Origin: Halostagnicola larsenii XH-48
GTDB taxonomy: Archaea; Halobacteriota; Halobacteria; Halobacteriales; Natrialbaceae
Length of the DNA stretch: 64,000 nt
Direction: 5' to 3'
Assembly: GCF_000517625.1 (NCBI RefSeq)
Contig: NZ_CP007058.1
Span: 62,001 to 126,000, forward strand
The position numbers and the translations under genes are program-made. Positions within the stretch are counted from its first letter, which is position 1; the number at the start of each line of letters is the position of its first letter. This document shows, in pieces, positions 41,691-48,407 of the stretch. The notes below the pieces were generated by a model. The model ran no database searches and was not told the origin of the DNA. It worked only from the letters and a program-made list of their open reading frames with translations.

Positions 41691-43301
41691 TCACTGTTCC
41701 CCGGTGTCGAGATCGAGGTGACCGAGTACGTCGTCGAAGCACGCGTCTACATTCGGGTTCGCGATTTGCTCCTCGCCGAGCCCTGGAACCGCGGGTTCGT
41801 CGGACGTGAACAACTCGACGGACGTCAGAACGGCGTCGTTCAAGTCGAGGTTGAACTCGGCTACCGAGTCGATAAGTCTGTTTCCATTGACGGCACCGAC
41901 GGGTTCGATGATCGTGCCGACTTCGCCGTCGCCGGGATCGAACGTGATGCGGACGATAACGTCCGTATAATCGCCGACGACGCGTACGCGCTGGCAATCG
42001 AGATACTCGGTCGCGTCGCCGTTCGACGGGTCTTTCGGTTGACTTCTTGGGTCCATCGAGACCGTTCGTGCCCAGGCCGCAGACTGTTCGCCTTCGATCC
42101 GTCTTCCCGCAGCGACCACCTCGTTTCCGGGACCGCGTGCGAGGGAGCTGACGACGCTCGGCTGATCGGCTTCGAAGTCCGTCCGATCGACCGTTCCGAC
42201 CCAGCCGGCTCCGTCTCGCACGCCACCGGCGACGACGCCCGACGGCGTCCGCAGCGCACAAAACAGCGGCTGCCCGTCGAGAACCTCGAGCCACTGTCGT
42301 TCGCCGTCGTCCGTGTATCCTGCGACGAACCCGTCACCCGCGGCGGTGGGGTCGGTGAGTATCGAGCGCCCGAACCGATCGATGGCACCAGTCGTTCCGA
42401 CAACCACGAAGTCGTACCCCTCGACGTTGCTCGGCACGATATCGTACACGATCGTCGGTTCGTCCTCCTCGAGTGCGAACCGCTCGTCCCAGCGCTCGTT
42501 CAGGTCCTCGTCCAGCCCGACGATCCACCCCCGCGCCGGCTCGTTGGGCTCGGGTTCGTACGAGCCTGCAACGACGTAGCCGTTCGGTGCCCGTGTAATC
42601 GCTCTGAACACGTCGGCTCTGCTCGTCGTCTCGAGGTCGCGTTCCGTCGCGGGATACCTCGTATATCCGTTAACGGAGCCGTCCCGCTCGAGTTCTACGA
42701 GCCACCCGGCGCTTCCGAGCATGATGCCCGGTGACTCGGCGCCACAGCAGAGAAATCCGTCCGCGGTTTCGACGCCGTCGGTCAGGTAGCTAAACGCGGA
42801 TGCATCCTCGAGATCGCCGAGCGACTGTTCGCTTCGAACGGTGCCGTCCTCGTCGACGTCATAAATTCGGGTGACGTAGACCGCAGGACCGTCGAAGTAC
42901 GTCCATCCGATCAGGAGATAGCCGTCGTCGGTTTCGAACGACAGGGTCAGCCAGTCCTCGGGAATCGGCCCCGTCTGGGGTTCGATCCCTCGCGCCTCCC
43001 GCTGGGGGTTCGACTGGTACGTTTGCTCCCACCGTTCGTCGCCATCTGCGGACAGGCTCGTCGCGAGCCCCCGTGTTTCGTACTGGTCAGGTACGTCGGT
43101 GCCGCCGACCAGAAGATAGCCGTCGTCGGTCCGCAGGACGTCCTCGTACAGGCTGCTCGGCGGTCTGTTGTATTCCCACTCGATTCTGCTGGTTGCAGTG
43201 TCGTTCTGTCCATCGCGAGCCATCGCTGCCCCGGTCATCGACGAAAGCGCCGCTGCTGACGCTGTGGCCGCGAGAAACCGCCGTCGGTCGAACCCTACCA
43301 T
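41691..43301 (-). CDS. Tat-exported repeat protein, probable beta-propeller
   Basis: 536 residues from ATG 43301. The signal is MVGFDRRRFLAATASAAALS with a twin-arginine motif and Ala-rich core, cleavage probably after AMA. The mature part has repeated modules of about 45-60 residues with the pattern DDGYLLVGG ... ADGDERWEQTY, FETDDGYLLIGWTYF, DGFLCCGAE, NGYVVAGSYEP ... LNERWDERF, and SGVVAGGVRDG. These are the strand pairs of outer-membrane-type or PQQ-like propellers seen in secreted haloarchaeal proteins. No lipobox is present. A C-terminal beta-sandwich-like segment of about 110 residues ends the protein. Function unknown. Confidence 0.82.
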   Translation of the reverse strand: MVGFDRRRFLAATASAAALSSMTGAAMARDGQNDTATSRIEWEYNRPPSSLYEDVLRTDDGYLLVGGTDVPDQYETRGLATSLSADGDERWEQTYQSNPQREARGIEPQTGPIPEDWLTLSFETDDGYLLIGWTYFDGPAVYVTRIYDVDEDGTVRSEQSLGDLEDASAFSYLTDGVETADGFLCCGAESPGIMLGSAGWLVELERDGSVNGYTRYPATERDLETTSRADVFRAITRAPNGYVVAGSYEPEPNEPARGWIVGLDEDLNERWDERFALEEDEPTIVYDIVPSNVEGYDFVVVGTTGAIDRFGRSILTDPTAAGDGFVAGYTDDGERQWLEVLDGQPLFCALRTPSGVVAGGVRDGAGWVGTVDRTDFEADQPSVVSSLARGPGNEVVAAGRRIEGEQSAAWARTVSMDPRSQPKDPSNGDATEYLDCQRVRVVGDYTDVIVRITFDPGDGEVGTIIEPVGAVNGNRLIDSVAEFNLDLNDAVLTSVELFTSDEPAVPGLGEEQIANPNVDACFDDVLGHLDLDTGEQ

Positions 43302-43557
43302 ACCAACCCTCTCCGTCACCCGGCGTATCAATCATTTTTTAGAAACTGATGACGGTCACGAGTAGCAACTCACTACTCCGGGTGAGTGTCGAGTATCCGT
43401 GTCCGTTCGATCGCATCGAGTGACAGACGCCGTGTAATCTTTTCGGCGCTGACAACGGCTCCCCCTAGCAACGAAATGCCTGCTTACACGCGCACTTATT
43501 GATCCAGTAATTAGGTTTGCTCCATGTTGGTCTCGACAGCGAGACCCCTGTACACCA

Positions 43558-44360: not shown

Positions 44361-44675
44361 CTACGATCCGCTCGAGCGATCGTCCATCGACTCGAACTCG
44401 CATTCGCCGCGAATCAGTTCGTCGACGCCCTCGGTGAGCGTCACCGAACCGAACACGGTGGCCCGATAGTACGTGTACAGCCCGTCCTGATCCCGCTTGG
44501 TTCGCTGCCGTTTTTCGACGAGTCCGAGATTAACGGGGTGATCGGTGAGGGGAAGGAGGCCGAGACCGCTCCATTCGAGCGCACCCGCGAGGTTCTTGGT
44601 TATACAGACACGCCAGTCTCGGCGGACACCGATGTCGAGTCCGCACAACAATTCCCGAAGACTGCATAGAATCAT
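44361..44675 (-). pseudogene. Remnant of a regulator-like protein
   Basis: 104 residues from the only in-frame ATG. The C-terminal half looks like a winged-helix regulator (NLGLVEKRQRTKRDQDGLYTYYRATVFG, VTLTEGVDELIRGECEFESM), a pattern I associate with haloarchaeal plasmid and virus regulators. The upstream frame (VDKPLCVGDQELVE) continues to a stop with no start codon, so the N-terminus seems lost. It lies at the left end of the accessory stretch. Confidence 0.45.
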
Positions 44676-44830
44676 CTCGACGAGCTCTTGATCGCCAACG
44701 CAGAGCGGCTTGTCGACGGCGAATCACACCCGATCAGTGCATCTCTCACGCAATAGCAACCTGCTATAAATGACACCTTATAAATATAATCTCCTTCATT
44801 ACATTATGTTTGGGTTTGAGGGTTAGTAAC

Positions 44831-45583
44831 ATGACATCTGGAGACGGTACTGATATAGATCAAGAGTCAACAGTGGCTGAACCACCCGAAGAAAACGAGT
44901 CGAAACTCACACGACGCAGGCTCGGAAAAGGGGCAGCGGTCCTTATCGGTGGTGGAGCCGGCTTGGGATATCTCTTGCTTGGAAGTTCTCCAGCTCTCGC
45001 AGTTGACGGTGCAGACCAGTGGATCGCGAACTCAGCCGAAATCACGTCCCAAGACGGTAGTGTGGATTCGATAACATTCGGTGATCCTGACGGAATCGAC
45101 GACAGCGAGACGCTCGATGAAGAGGATAACGGGCTAGTTGTCGAATGGGGCGGATTCGACGCAGGAACGACTGGGGCCGATTTCACGATATTCATCGCGG
45201 GTACGAGCGGCGGAGATGGTGGCAGTTGGACAGGTGGTGGCGAGACGACGGCTTCGGAAGCATTGGCAACCGGTTCAGAAACACTCACCGGCACGAATGG
45301 ATCAGCGACCTTCACGTGGACCGACGTGTTTGGCGAACCACAGCCAGTTGATGTCACGGCGCATACTGAGATTGCACTCAGCGATTTCGAAGCGGATACC
45401 AATAACGCGACAACAGTCCGAGAACTTGAAGTGACAATTGAAGTCGTTGTCCCGGACGAGGATGAGCTAACTGCCACCGCAACAACAACTGCGACGATTA
45501 CCGTTAACAACCAGGACGTCACAATCGAGTTCGGTGGTCAAGGTACCTTCGAGATTGAATCCGACGAGGAAGTCGTCGAATGA
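44831..45583 (+). CDS. Tat-exported protein A with novel domain (pairs with protein B)
   Basis: 250 residues. A 25-residue acidic start precedes a Tat-type signal (KLTRRRLGKGAAVLIGGGAG, then a hydrophobic core, SPALA before the predicted cut near 58). The mature domain (about 60-225) matches protein B (45657-46946): WIANSAEITSQDGSVDSITFG, GSWTGG, FTWTDVFGEPQPVDVTAHTE, IALSDFEA, TATATTTATITVNN. It is acidic, Thr-rich and beta-predicted, a secreted adhesin-like or cell-surface domain. No known family is recognised. Start ATG 44831 after an AT-rich promoter-like stretch. Confidence 0.75.
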   Translation: MTSGDGTDIDQESTVAEPPEENESKLTRRRLGKGAAVLIGGGAGLGYLLLGSSPALAVDGADQWIANSAEITSQDGSVDSITFGDPDGIDDSETLDEEDNGLVVEWGGFDAGTTGADFTIFIAGTSGGDGGSWTGGGETTASEALATGSETLTGTNGSATFTWTDVFGEPQPVDVTAHTEIALSDFEADTNNATTVRELEVTIEVVVPDEDELTATATTTATITVNNQDVTIEFGGQGTFEIESDEEVVE

Positions 45584-45656
45584 CGTACCGAACCACAAGC
45601 CGATTCGCGTGAAAGAACATATTGTGGATCTTTCGCGATCATCTTCTCGTTCTCAC

Positions 45657-46946
45657 TCATTCTTCTGTGGACAGTTCAAGAACGATGTCCGCATGACCGG
45701 TATTTCCACCACCTGTTCGGGTTGAAATGACGGAGAGATCTACTAGCTGAGTGTTCGCTGTTTGGCCGCCATTGTTACCGCTATTTCCAATGCCGATTGC
45801 TGGTGCACGACCACCGGATCCGCCAGAACCAGCACCTTCGCCTCTTTGCCCGGGAGACCCAGCGAATGAGCCGAACCCGCCAGAACCCCCTCGAGCACCG
45901 CCTCCACCACCGTACCCCGCTGTAAGAAGACCGCCCCCATCACCAGATCCCCCTCCACCGCTGGCAGTTAAAATACTCTCAGTAGTGGAAACTCCGACAG
46001 ATAGATGCGAGGAACCCCCGCCCCCACCAGCGCTCCTCCCACCACCGTTTCCACCATCGAATCCACCCCATCCCCCAATTCGACCAGTGGGCCGCTGCCC
46101 AGCCCAGGCACGTAGTGTTTCAGTCGTAGAGAGATCTACCGCAGCATTTATTCTACCGCCTGTTCCACCTGCTCGATCGGAACTCGCTCCACCGGATCCG
46201 TTGATTGTTACTCTCGCAGAATCATATGCAGCAACGTCGATATCGACCGGTTCGGGGCTCGCCTGTCCATCGGTCATGAAGTAGAACTCGTCTGCTTCGG
46301 TCGAGGCAGCGAACTGCCCTTCCAGATAGCCAATCCGTACTACCAAATTAGGGTTCGTCACGCTAATCGTTGCGGTAGCCGTTGCAGTAGCAGAAATATC
46401 CGCTTCGGGGATCATCCCCTCGATTTCGACAGCCAGCACTTGTTCTGTTGTCGTGCCGCCTGTGGGTGCCTCGAAGTCCTCGAGTTCGATCTCGGAATGG
46501 TCTGTCACATCAACTGGCCGTGGGTCACCGAATAATTCTTCCCACGAATACACCGCTTCGCTGGAGGCTTGGTTGACCGCGGTACTACCGGTCGCCAGCA
46601 CCTCCCAATCGGTTTCGTCAGCACCGCCACTCCAACTCCCAGCTCCGTCAGCCGTCCCTTTAAGCCGGATTTCAAACGTAATGTCCGCAGGCAGCCTATT
46701 CACCCCCTCATAGGTCACGCGAATCTCATCAGCATCTTCATGCTCAGCATCGCCAAACGTGAGTTCAGATATCTCTCCATTATCGCTCGTAATGGCTGCA
46801 TCGTTAACAGCCCACTCAACCTCACTCAATGCGAGGGCCGAACGGCTATTGGGTACGATCAAACCTACACTTGCAAGTCCGCCTGCACAGATACGGGCTA
46901 CCCACCGCTTGAATTCGCGACGTGTCAATTGGATCTTACGGCTCAT
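45657..46946 (-). CDS. Tat-exported protein B: same novel domain plus glycine-rich region
   Basis: 429 residues. Signal MSRKIQLTRREFKRWVARIC (Tat-like, RRxFKRW), cut probable after SALA near 39. Residues 40-205 are homologous to protein A: VEWAVNDAAITSDNGEISEL, TFGDAEHED, GSWSGG, YSWEELFGDPRPVDVTDHSE, IELEDFEAP, ATATATISVTNPN. Then a beta segment (about 210-265) and a long Gly/Ser-rich region (about 265-410; many GG pairs, GGGGG runs) with a terminal beta-strand. The glycine-rich part suggests an extended or fibrous surface structure. The gene is convergent with A, 73 bp between stops. Function unknown. Confidence 0.78.
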   Translation of the reverse strand: MSRKIQLTRREFKRWVARICAGGLASVGLIVPNSRSALALSEVEWAVNDAAITSDNGEISELTFGDAEHEDADEIRVTYEGVNRLPADITFEIRLKGTADGAGSWSGGADETDWEVLATGSTAVNQASSEAVYSWEELFGDPRPVDVTDHSEIELEDFEAPTGGTTTEQVLAVEIEGMIPEADISATATATATISVTNPNLVVRIGYLEGQFAASTEADEFYFMTDGQASPEPVDIDVAAYDSARVTINGSGGASSDRAGGTGGRINAAVDLSTTETLRAWAGQRPTGRIGGWGGFDGGNGGGRSAGGGGGSSHLSVGVSTTESILTASGGGGSGDGGGLLTAGYGGGGGARGGSGGFGSFAGSPGQRGEGAGSGGSGGRAPAIGIGNSGNNGGQTANTQLVDLSVISTRTGGGNTGHADIVLELSTEE

Positions 46947-47597
46947 GAAAATCGCTGCTATTTCGTATGATCTGTAGTGTGATATTCAGATTCATTTATG
47001 ATAGCTAATAGAAAATTATGAATTTCCTACCGTATTTGGGAAGATGAATTACCAGTAGAGGATACGCAGAAATAGTTTAGTAGCGGAACTAGCTGTGGTT
47101 TTCATCGATATCTGTCTTCAGCTATGCGAAAAACCACGTGACGGCAGCAGGATATAGAAGGAATGATGAGGAACAGCTGTGGACACCAAAAGCCTCCTCA
47201 TCCCGAATTAGGCGTCGACTTACACCCTCTCTGAATTCCCCGAAGAGTACTTCGAAGAATTCTGTGTGGTCGAACGGGACCACAAATTCCAGACAGTGGT
47301 CTCAATAGAGCGTTCGAGAGGCTCTCGAAGAACAGCGCAGTTCGTCTCTGGTTTCAGTCGGATGCTCGGTCCCATCACCTGCGGGTCTCCCTTATCGGTC
47401 GTCGTCGGTCACGAAGGAGGACATTTCTCGAGGACCCTCTCGAGCCACCATTCGTCCGCGTCTGAAGATTGGATGTAGCAGTTTCCAGGTTTCACGATCG
47501 AGTATACGCCGTTATAGGGGATACTCTTCTGACGGGTACATTCAGGAGACATCGTACGAGGACGAACAGCTATGCCACTGGCATGCGTACTGTTACC
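46947..47597. other. 651-bp AT-rich gap with hairpin and coding debris
   Basis: Lies between protein B and the FilR1-type regulator. Bases 46970-47160 are AT-rich. A hairpin follows at 47165-47202. From about 47217 one frame reads YTLSEFPEEYFEEFCVVERD, a plausible protein fragment without a start codon, then loses credibility. No intact gene is seen. Probably mobile-element debris. Confidence 0.5.
47165..47202. repeat. Hairpin (8-bp stem), degenerate relative of the 50039 element
   Basis: GATGAGGA (47165-47172) and TCCTCATC (47195-47202) are perfect complements around a 22-nt loop. The part GACACCAAAAGCCTC then CTCATCCCGAA resembles GACGCCAAAGGCGTC then TCATCCCGAA at 50062-50089. Likely a related structured end of an element. 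Confidence 0.45.
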
Positions 47598-48407
47598 ATG
47601 TTATTTACTTCCGCCAGCACACCGCTCGAGGACATCGAGTTCCTCGCGCGGTCGGAACACCGAGTCACCGTGCTCGATACACTGACCGAGAACGCAGCGA
47701 CTCGAGGCGATCTCCGAGCCGCAACTGAAGCCTCGTCCTCGACGGTTAGCCGGACGTTACGGGCGTTCGAAGAACGGAACTGGATCAGTAGAAGTGGTAA
47801 TCAATACGAAGCAACACAGTTGGGCGCGTTCGTTGCCGCGGGGATGCGAGACCTGATCAATCGACTCGAGACCGAGCGAACGCTTCGCGATGTCTGGCCA
47901 TGGTTTCCGAGCGAGGCAAGTGGGTTTACCGTCGAGATGGTCGCCGATGCGACAGTGACGGTTGCCGAATCCGACACTCCATACGCACCAGTCAACCGAT
48001 TTCTGTCGTTGCTCCGGGAAACGGAGCAGTTTCGCTTCGTCGGCACCGATATCGCCCTGCTCGAGCCCTGTAAGGACGAGCTTCGTCAGCAGGTTATAAG
48101 CGGGATGCAGACGGCAATCATCGACCCGCCGAGCGTTGCCGAATACATCCTCTCGACGTACCGAGACCACTGTTCGACGGTCCTCGAGCGGCAGAATTTT
48201 ACCGTCGAGCTACACGACGATCTGCCGTCCTACGGTGTCAGTCTCTTCGACGACCGAATCGCCATTAGCTGCTATGACCCGGACAGCGGGATGGTACGAG
48301 CGGTAATCGATACGGACGACCCCGTCGCACGAGACTGGGCGGAGTCGACGTTCGTGGCCTATCGCGATGAGGCTCGGCCATTGACGCTCGAGCAGTCCGA
48401 GGACTGA
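47598..48407 (+). CDS. Winged-helix regulator with FilR1-type domain
   Basis: 269 residues from ATG 47598 (MLFTSASTPLEDIEFLARSE); an ATG five codons upstream (47583) is possible. N-terminal winged helix (about 10-75: HRVTVLDTLTENAATRGDLRA then ATEASSSTVSRTLRAFEERNWI). The middle and C-terminal part (about 110-260) match the FilR1 regulatory domain of archaeal regulators (FRFVGTDIALLEPCKDELRQQV, YGVSLFDDRIAISCYDPDSGMVRAVIDTDD). Such proteins are abundant, poorly characterised haloarchaeal regulators. Neighbours are a DUF1059 gene and a membrane protein, 175 bp downstream. Confidence 0.85.
   Translation: MLFTSASTPLEDIEFLARSEHRVTVLDTLTENAATRGDLRAATEASSSTVSRTLRAFEERNWISRSGNQYEATQLGAFVAAGMRDLINRLETERTLRDVWPWFPSEASGFTVEMVADATVTVAESDTPYAPVNRFLSLLRETEQFRFVGTDIALLEPCKDELRQQVISGMQTAIIDPPSVAEYILSTYRDHCSTVLERQNFTVELHDDLPSYGVSLFDDRIAISCYDPDSGMVRAVIDTDDPVARDWAESTFVAYRDEARPLTLEQSED

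Follow-up and report, generated by a model that had tools for sequence, protein, structure and literature searches.

A convergent pair of related genes, here called A and B, lies in the window analysed in this study (the whole stretch of DNA examined, 64,000 nucleotides) from a 4.13-Mb haloarchaeal genome in 5 contigs. Both genes appear to encode exported proteins, and the question raised by the locus is what two such proteins, one of them extended by a glycine-rich region, might be doing side by side. The coordinates given for the pair by the first-pass annotation are exact, as is the tail-to-tail gap of 73 bp between the stop codons (45584–45656). The annotation also assigned Tat-type signals to both proteins, which is supported by the sequences: the signal of A reads LTRRRLGKG...SSPALA and that of B reads LTRREFKRW...SRSALA, both twin-arginine with an AxA site. 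The predicted mature N-termini are VDGADQW for A and LSEVEW for B. Mature A has no cysteine and an extreme excess of acidic residues (22% D+E vs 0.5% K+R).

The ~200 residues common to A and B are 39–41% identical. Whole-genome searches scored this resemblance at E = 1.2e-37 and 4.3e-35 and BLASTP scored it at E = 5e-33, which, at the level of sequence, is far above chance. A shared domain had been described previously and is indeed present, but its length is ~200 rather than ~165 residues. B can be regarded, as was proposed, as a version of A in which an additional C-terminal part follows the homologous domain. This extension had been called Gly-rich, and residues 226–429 of B (204 residues) contain 30% Gly, vs 8% in the first 225 residues.

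Table 1 Features of the A/B locus, in positions of the window.
Feature	Coordinates	Strand	Description or basis
Gene A	44831..45583	+	250-aa single-domain protein, predicted Tat export; ATG 44831, stop 45583
Tat signal of A	44831..45001	+	RR = residues 28–29, AxA site = residues 55–57; sequence
Ig-like beta-sandwich domain of A (residues 58–227)	45002..45511	+	AlphaFold prediction, core pLDDT >90
Amphipathic C-terminal strand of A (VTIEFGGQGTFEIE), candidate donor strand	45518..45559	+	Family conservation; unpaired in monomer model
Gene B	45657..46946	-	429-aa two-part protein, predicted Tat export; ATG 46946, stop 45657
Tat signal of B	46830..46946	-	RR = residues 9–10, AxA site = residues 37–39; sequence
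A-like beta-sandwich domain of B (residues 40–205)	46332..46829	-	Homology to A; AlphaFold pLDDT mostly 60–88
Gly-rich C-terminal module of B (residues 226–429)	45660..46271	-	Shuffle-tested matches to G096 and G039; alignment
Accessory segment with A and B	44399..47558		Empty site in congener G018; roughly 3.16 kb
Damaged HTH-type regulator, left edge	44361..44675	-	Intact-looking 103-aa homologue in congener G021
Relic of ISH8-family (IS4-like) element	47109..47293		70–72% identity to ISH8-type elements, unannotated Natronorubrum copies

Orthologues of A at ~60–69% protein identity were found in Natrialba sp. SSL1 (G046), Natrarchaeobius chitinivorans (G037), G102 and G105. The frame is uninterrupted in three other genera, and the preservation of this single reading frame indicates that A is a real gene. 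In N. chitinivorans, an A-type gene (A', 247 aa) is followed ~127 bp downstream on the same strand by a B-type gene (B', 410 aa), the C-terminal region of which differs from the Gly-rich module of B. The A types, including A', form one clade in a phylogenetic tree (99/94), with B and B' outside it; as judged from this tree, the divergence of the A and B types predates the separation of the two known A/B gene pairs. In both genomes with a B type, B lies beside an A type, in differing orientation. A is often found alone: of the six close genes of A type, four lack a neighbouring B. The short ORFs adjoining A in different genomes show no homology to one another. Pairing itself recurs, in the A'–B' tandem and more widely as adjacent paralogues in 11 genomes besides that of the window, but the tail-to-tail layout is not conserved: the pairs other than that of the window are on one strand, and the clusters of G096 and G041 hold further members in other layouts.

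The shared domain reaches well beyond these close relatives. Distant members were reached with a profile from 8 sequences, in which A and B were seed members; they were found and realigned independently, and A and B match the profile over the full domain. An 18-sequence profile matched 143 of the 391 Halobacteria genomes, representing 54 of 86 genera. Near-full-length homologues are present in at least 86 of the 391 genomes, a lower bound since few candidates were scored per genome, which takes the listed matches spanning roughly 165 or more of the 205 model positions and leaves out many class-level matches covering only about model positions 5–110, possibly driven by the signal. The twin arginine is invariant in all 52 of the diverse members aligned. 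Outside Halobacteria, two genomes of a phylum-wide sample match, in the signal region only. Most family members are solitary, and in some lineages (g33) most sampled species have a family gene.

These searches show a family that is widespread in haloarchaea and absent from the domain libraries searched, in line with the earlier view of the domain as unrecognised. No convincing Pfam, NCBIfam or PHROG model was found for A or B, and no PDB sequence accounts for the domain. At E up to 10, Pfam and NCBIfam gave no match to A or B other than a weak lectin match in the Gly-rich part of B, and phrog_16041 touches B weakly (E 0.005–0.011). For the 52 diverse members, no Pfam or NCBIfam domain model was found beyond stray single matches. 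Several candidates were discarded along the way: the PDB profile matches were mainly to Tat signals of unrelated proteins, a single-protein match in G410 proved to be a DUF4349 protein, and a match in G103 was too weak. The match to 9p0a (named Pilin) lies within or near the signal region only, at E 0.25–0.44.

The structure of A was predicted with AlphaFold from a 52-sequence input. The model has a pLDDT of 80 overall and >90 in the core and forms a sandwich of long strands, which supports an Ig-like fold by prediction. Foldseek and VIA-align comparisons with the PDB returned only generic Ig/FnIII-type sandwich matches (E ≥5e-3, Z ≤8), including RbmA repeats and adhesin repeat domains. For B, the model is usable in its N-terminal domain, but pLDDT is <50 from residue 201 onward, and we assign no fold to the Gly-rich region. 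The tail of A that follows the last strand is unpaired in the monomer model with pLDDT about 60, and low confidence of this kind is common at a chain end and is no proof of strand donation. Across the family, this tail shows a hydrophobic/polar alternation of about 0.6–0.7 vs 0.07–0.14, as for a beta-strand. The alternation is centred on a Gly that is conserved in 84% of members, including 92% of short members vs 60% of long ones, and the tails of B and B' are altered. Together, these patterns suggest that the tail is strand-like.

Adjacent paralogues were observed in 12 of the 86 genomes (G000, G037, G041, G047, G096, G165, G188, G201, G327, G352, G403 and G410), a count that includes the window's own genome. 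Typically, one member is short and the other has an extra C-terminal region, two domain copies or an insertion; the G165 pair consists of two short members. The architecture of A plus Gly-rich B is repeated in tandem in G096, where a 240-aa A type is followed by a 451-aa B type. Elsewhere the long partners differ, with an unnamed region of another kind at the end of the G037 protein, a duplicated domain or an inserted GLUG-like repeat region in G041 and G047, and other extensions in G403, G327, G410, G201 and G188. Several short members end in Thr-rich or low-complexity tails. This pattern points to recurring adjacent paralogues with swapping of C-terminal modules.

Further features were seen in and around family members. 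At L108:2575-4371 (-) and L109:5205-7001 (-), the family domain is apparently split by a long insert resembling GLUG-type adhesin repeats, and a GLUG protein also adjoins the G096 cluster. In genus g15 (loci L045, L049, L054 and L058), members measure ~530–555 aa and carry at their C-terminus three long repeats that are nearly identical (EINAIIEDINAELANVEPVGTI...), an extension of another type. A DUF7344 gene lies beside the clusters in G327, G410, G201 and G188 (L105, L106, L112 and L113; two haloarchaeal families); its product is winged-helix-like, passing the model cut-off, and is a possible local regulator. The third cluster gene of G201 and G188 (L112:7157-8020 and L113:7984-8832) encodes a protein in which a hydrophobic N-terminal stretch and a linker rich in Thr and Pro take the place of a Tat signal. 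The G201 copy has a weak family match (E 1.4e-4), and this protein could be a membrane-anchored base subunit. No assembly machine, sortase-like gene or signal-peptidase gene common to the family neighbourhoods was found.

Two targets score 96.7 bits each with the Gly-rich module of B: the corresponding module of G096 and the N-terminal part of a G039 protein of 1215 aa. Among 200 shuffles with the composition kept, the highest scores were 59.7 and 55.5 bits. Composition-adjusted BLAST statistics give only E 0.56 for the match to G096, so this relationship is drawn from the shuffles together with the alignment, and by these two measures the region is a true shared module. In style, it is similar to the ALK/LTK-type glycine-rich domain (PF12810) and Gly_rich_2 (PF21722), having Gly clusters split by short strand-like segments with GGGG ends, but neither Pfam model matches B at its curated cut-off in a search of its own genome. 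No PDB profile match was obtained for the module. The 1215-aa protein of G039 belongs to phrog_18315 (L031:6277-9924, -) and is encoded near a minor tail protein gene; the module is N-terminal in this protein and C-terminal in B. It is possibly an adhesive module common to host and virus.

How might such proteins act? The reading that we moderately favour is that the family comprises modular surface or matrix proteins and that B is the module-bearing partner. The acidic Ig-like sandwich proteins, exported by Tat, would act outside the cell, and A and B are probably parts of the cell surface; the surface location, the pilus or adhesion function and the 'cap' role suggested by the first-pass annotation may each apply. 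A would be the core subunit, single-domain and repeating, and B an A-like subunit that displays an interchangeable module of adhesive type, here the Gly-rich one, to a presumed ligand. The likeliest assembly would be head to tail, with the C-terminal strand of one subunit completing the sandwich of the subunit that follows. B has a changed tail that leads into its Gly-rich module, and it would end the chain as its tip. Strand donation between subunits would explain the conserved unpaired pattern of the tail. Taken by itself, however, the fibre step is doubtful, as it is disfavoured by the lack of an assembly machine, by the many solitary members and by Tat export of folded protein, since an incomplete sandwich would then need self-capping. 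The full proposal, a class-wide system of Tat-exported fibres with a C-terminal donor strand and with B proteins as tip subunits bearing interchangeable modules, one of them common to virus-type proteins, appears unlikely.

About as likely as the fibre reading is a family of adhesins that do not polymerise. A and B would in that case be secreted or S-layer-associated binding proteins, working alone or as small hetero-oligomers, with the sandwich as a generic binding or spacer domain and with C-terminal modules that bind polysaccharide, protein or other cells; the two genes would be diverged duplicates linked through serving the same niche. We hold this alternative tentatively. It fits the solitary state of the majority of members, the generic nature of the Ig/FnIII-like matches and the Thr-rich or low-complexity tails of several short members, but by itself it leaves unexplained both the conserved unpaired amphipathic tail and the repeated adjacency of short and long paralogues.

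Comparison with known surface structures bears on the modular surface protein reading and its fibre step. Described haloarchaeal filaments are mostly relatives of type IV pili. Type IV pilins and archaellins have a class III signal and a hydrophobic N-terminal helix, both of which A lacks, having instead a twin arginine with an AxA site and a beta-rich mature domain. TasA is exported by a SipW/Sec-type route. TasA fibres are built by strand donation, in which a C-terminus that is disordered in the monomer becomes ordered in the fibre (PMC9674648). Like A and B, TasA and the archaeal bundling pili have exported beta-sandwich subunits with a terminus disordered in the monomer (PMC9674648), and their combination of a main subunit with an accessory partner offers an analogy in how the pair may work. 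A and B differ from them in Tat export, in a candidate donor strand that is C-terminal rather than N-terminal and in having no Pfam match; TasA, camelysin and bundling-pilus structures are not among the listed fold matches of A, which does not exclude them. The crenarchaeal thread Saci_0406 is likewise a donor-strand fibre, for which the related neighbouring gene Saci_0405 is a cap candidate (PMC9715654); in being a sandwich protein of an archaeal surface, with a relative encoded next to it and with strand complementation, it resembles the arrangement proposed for A and B. Saci_0406 differs in having a Sec/SPI signal and a conserved N-terminal D and YYY motif, in place of the Tat signals and mature N-termini of A and B, and no sequence match of A or B to it was found in the PDB search. 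A possible further member is Hlac_3146, which has a Tat signal but no recognisable domain and was 2.1- and 3.2-fold up in the SF fraction of Halorubrum lacusprofundi biofilms (PMC5118699).

The family also extends to a virus. When the model of A was compared with BFVD, five viral proteins matched at E ≤1.1e-4, one of them from HSTV-1, a tailed virus of Haloarcula. HSTV-1 gp30 is a family member over nearly its full length (profile E 8e-18), having the same domain as A and B and its own RR signal; it differs from the pair in being virus-encoded and in having a single domain. Gene 30 (KC117378, L124:20719-21288) is on the strand opposite to the neighbouring virion genes. Direct search found no family member in phage records beyond HSTV-1, and neither plasmids, phages nor IMG/VR yielded a match when queried with A, with B or with a close profile.

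In congener G018, the two flanking genes are 88–90% identical to those of the window and 44398 joins 47559 with ~36 bp between them, which identifies the intervening DNA as an accessory segment. This clean empty site agrees with the accessory stretch proposed earlier. The regulator remnant noted at 44361 is likewise a damaged HTH-type regulator, 67% identical over 78 aa to its intact-looking G021 homologue, and the 'debris' noted to the right of the pair (47165) includes the ISH8-family relic. Searches of four congeners gave no close A or B gene; distant members of the family lie elsewhere in the genomes of G018 and G021. Just right of the segment is an HVO_A0261/FilR1-type regulator (47469-48407, +); the G018 alignment begins at 47559 inside this ORF, placing the insertion edge within or just before the ORF start. 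Two genes from the pair, 41691-43331 (-) encodes a 546-aa RR-signal protein with repeated W/G-rich blades discernible by eye, which is conserved in congeners and lies outside the accessory segment.

Three observations would suit a role at the host–virus interface: the pair lies in accessory DNA that also holds an IS relic, HSTV-1 has a Tat-signal family member set against its virion genes, and the Gly-rich module recurs in a G039 protein whose gene is close to tail genes. In this view the proteins would be decoys or receptors at the cell surface, or would exclude superinfecting viruses, and would travel with viruses and mobile segments. We consider this improbable as the main explanation: direct search gave one virus isolate only, and in lineages such as g33 the gene is found in most sampled species, as for a resident gene. 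That the pair is a transferred remnant decaying without current function is very improbable, since despite the patchy distribution, the absence of the segment from a congener and the ISH8 relic and damaged regulator at its edges, both frames are intact and the signals and family-wide conserved positions are kept.

Beyond the earlier reading, the pair exemplifies a family of exported proteins found across the class, in which a short paralogue and a module-bearing one repeatedly lie side by side. Members occur in at least one-fifth of the Halobacteria genomes sampled, and none of the domain libraries searched covers them; describing the family would fill a gap in our picture of the haloarchaeal cell surface. 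The copy in a tailed virus ties the family to virus–host contact. If the family polymerises, its product would be a donor-strand fibre with Tat-exported subunits. The A/B pair offers a candidate, accessible to experiment, for a new surface fibre or adhesin in archaea.
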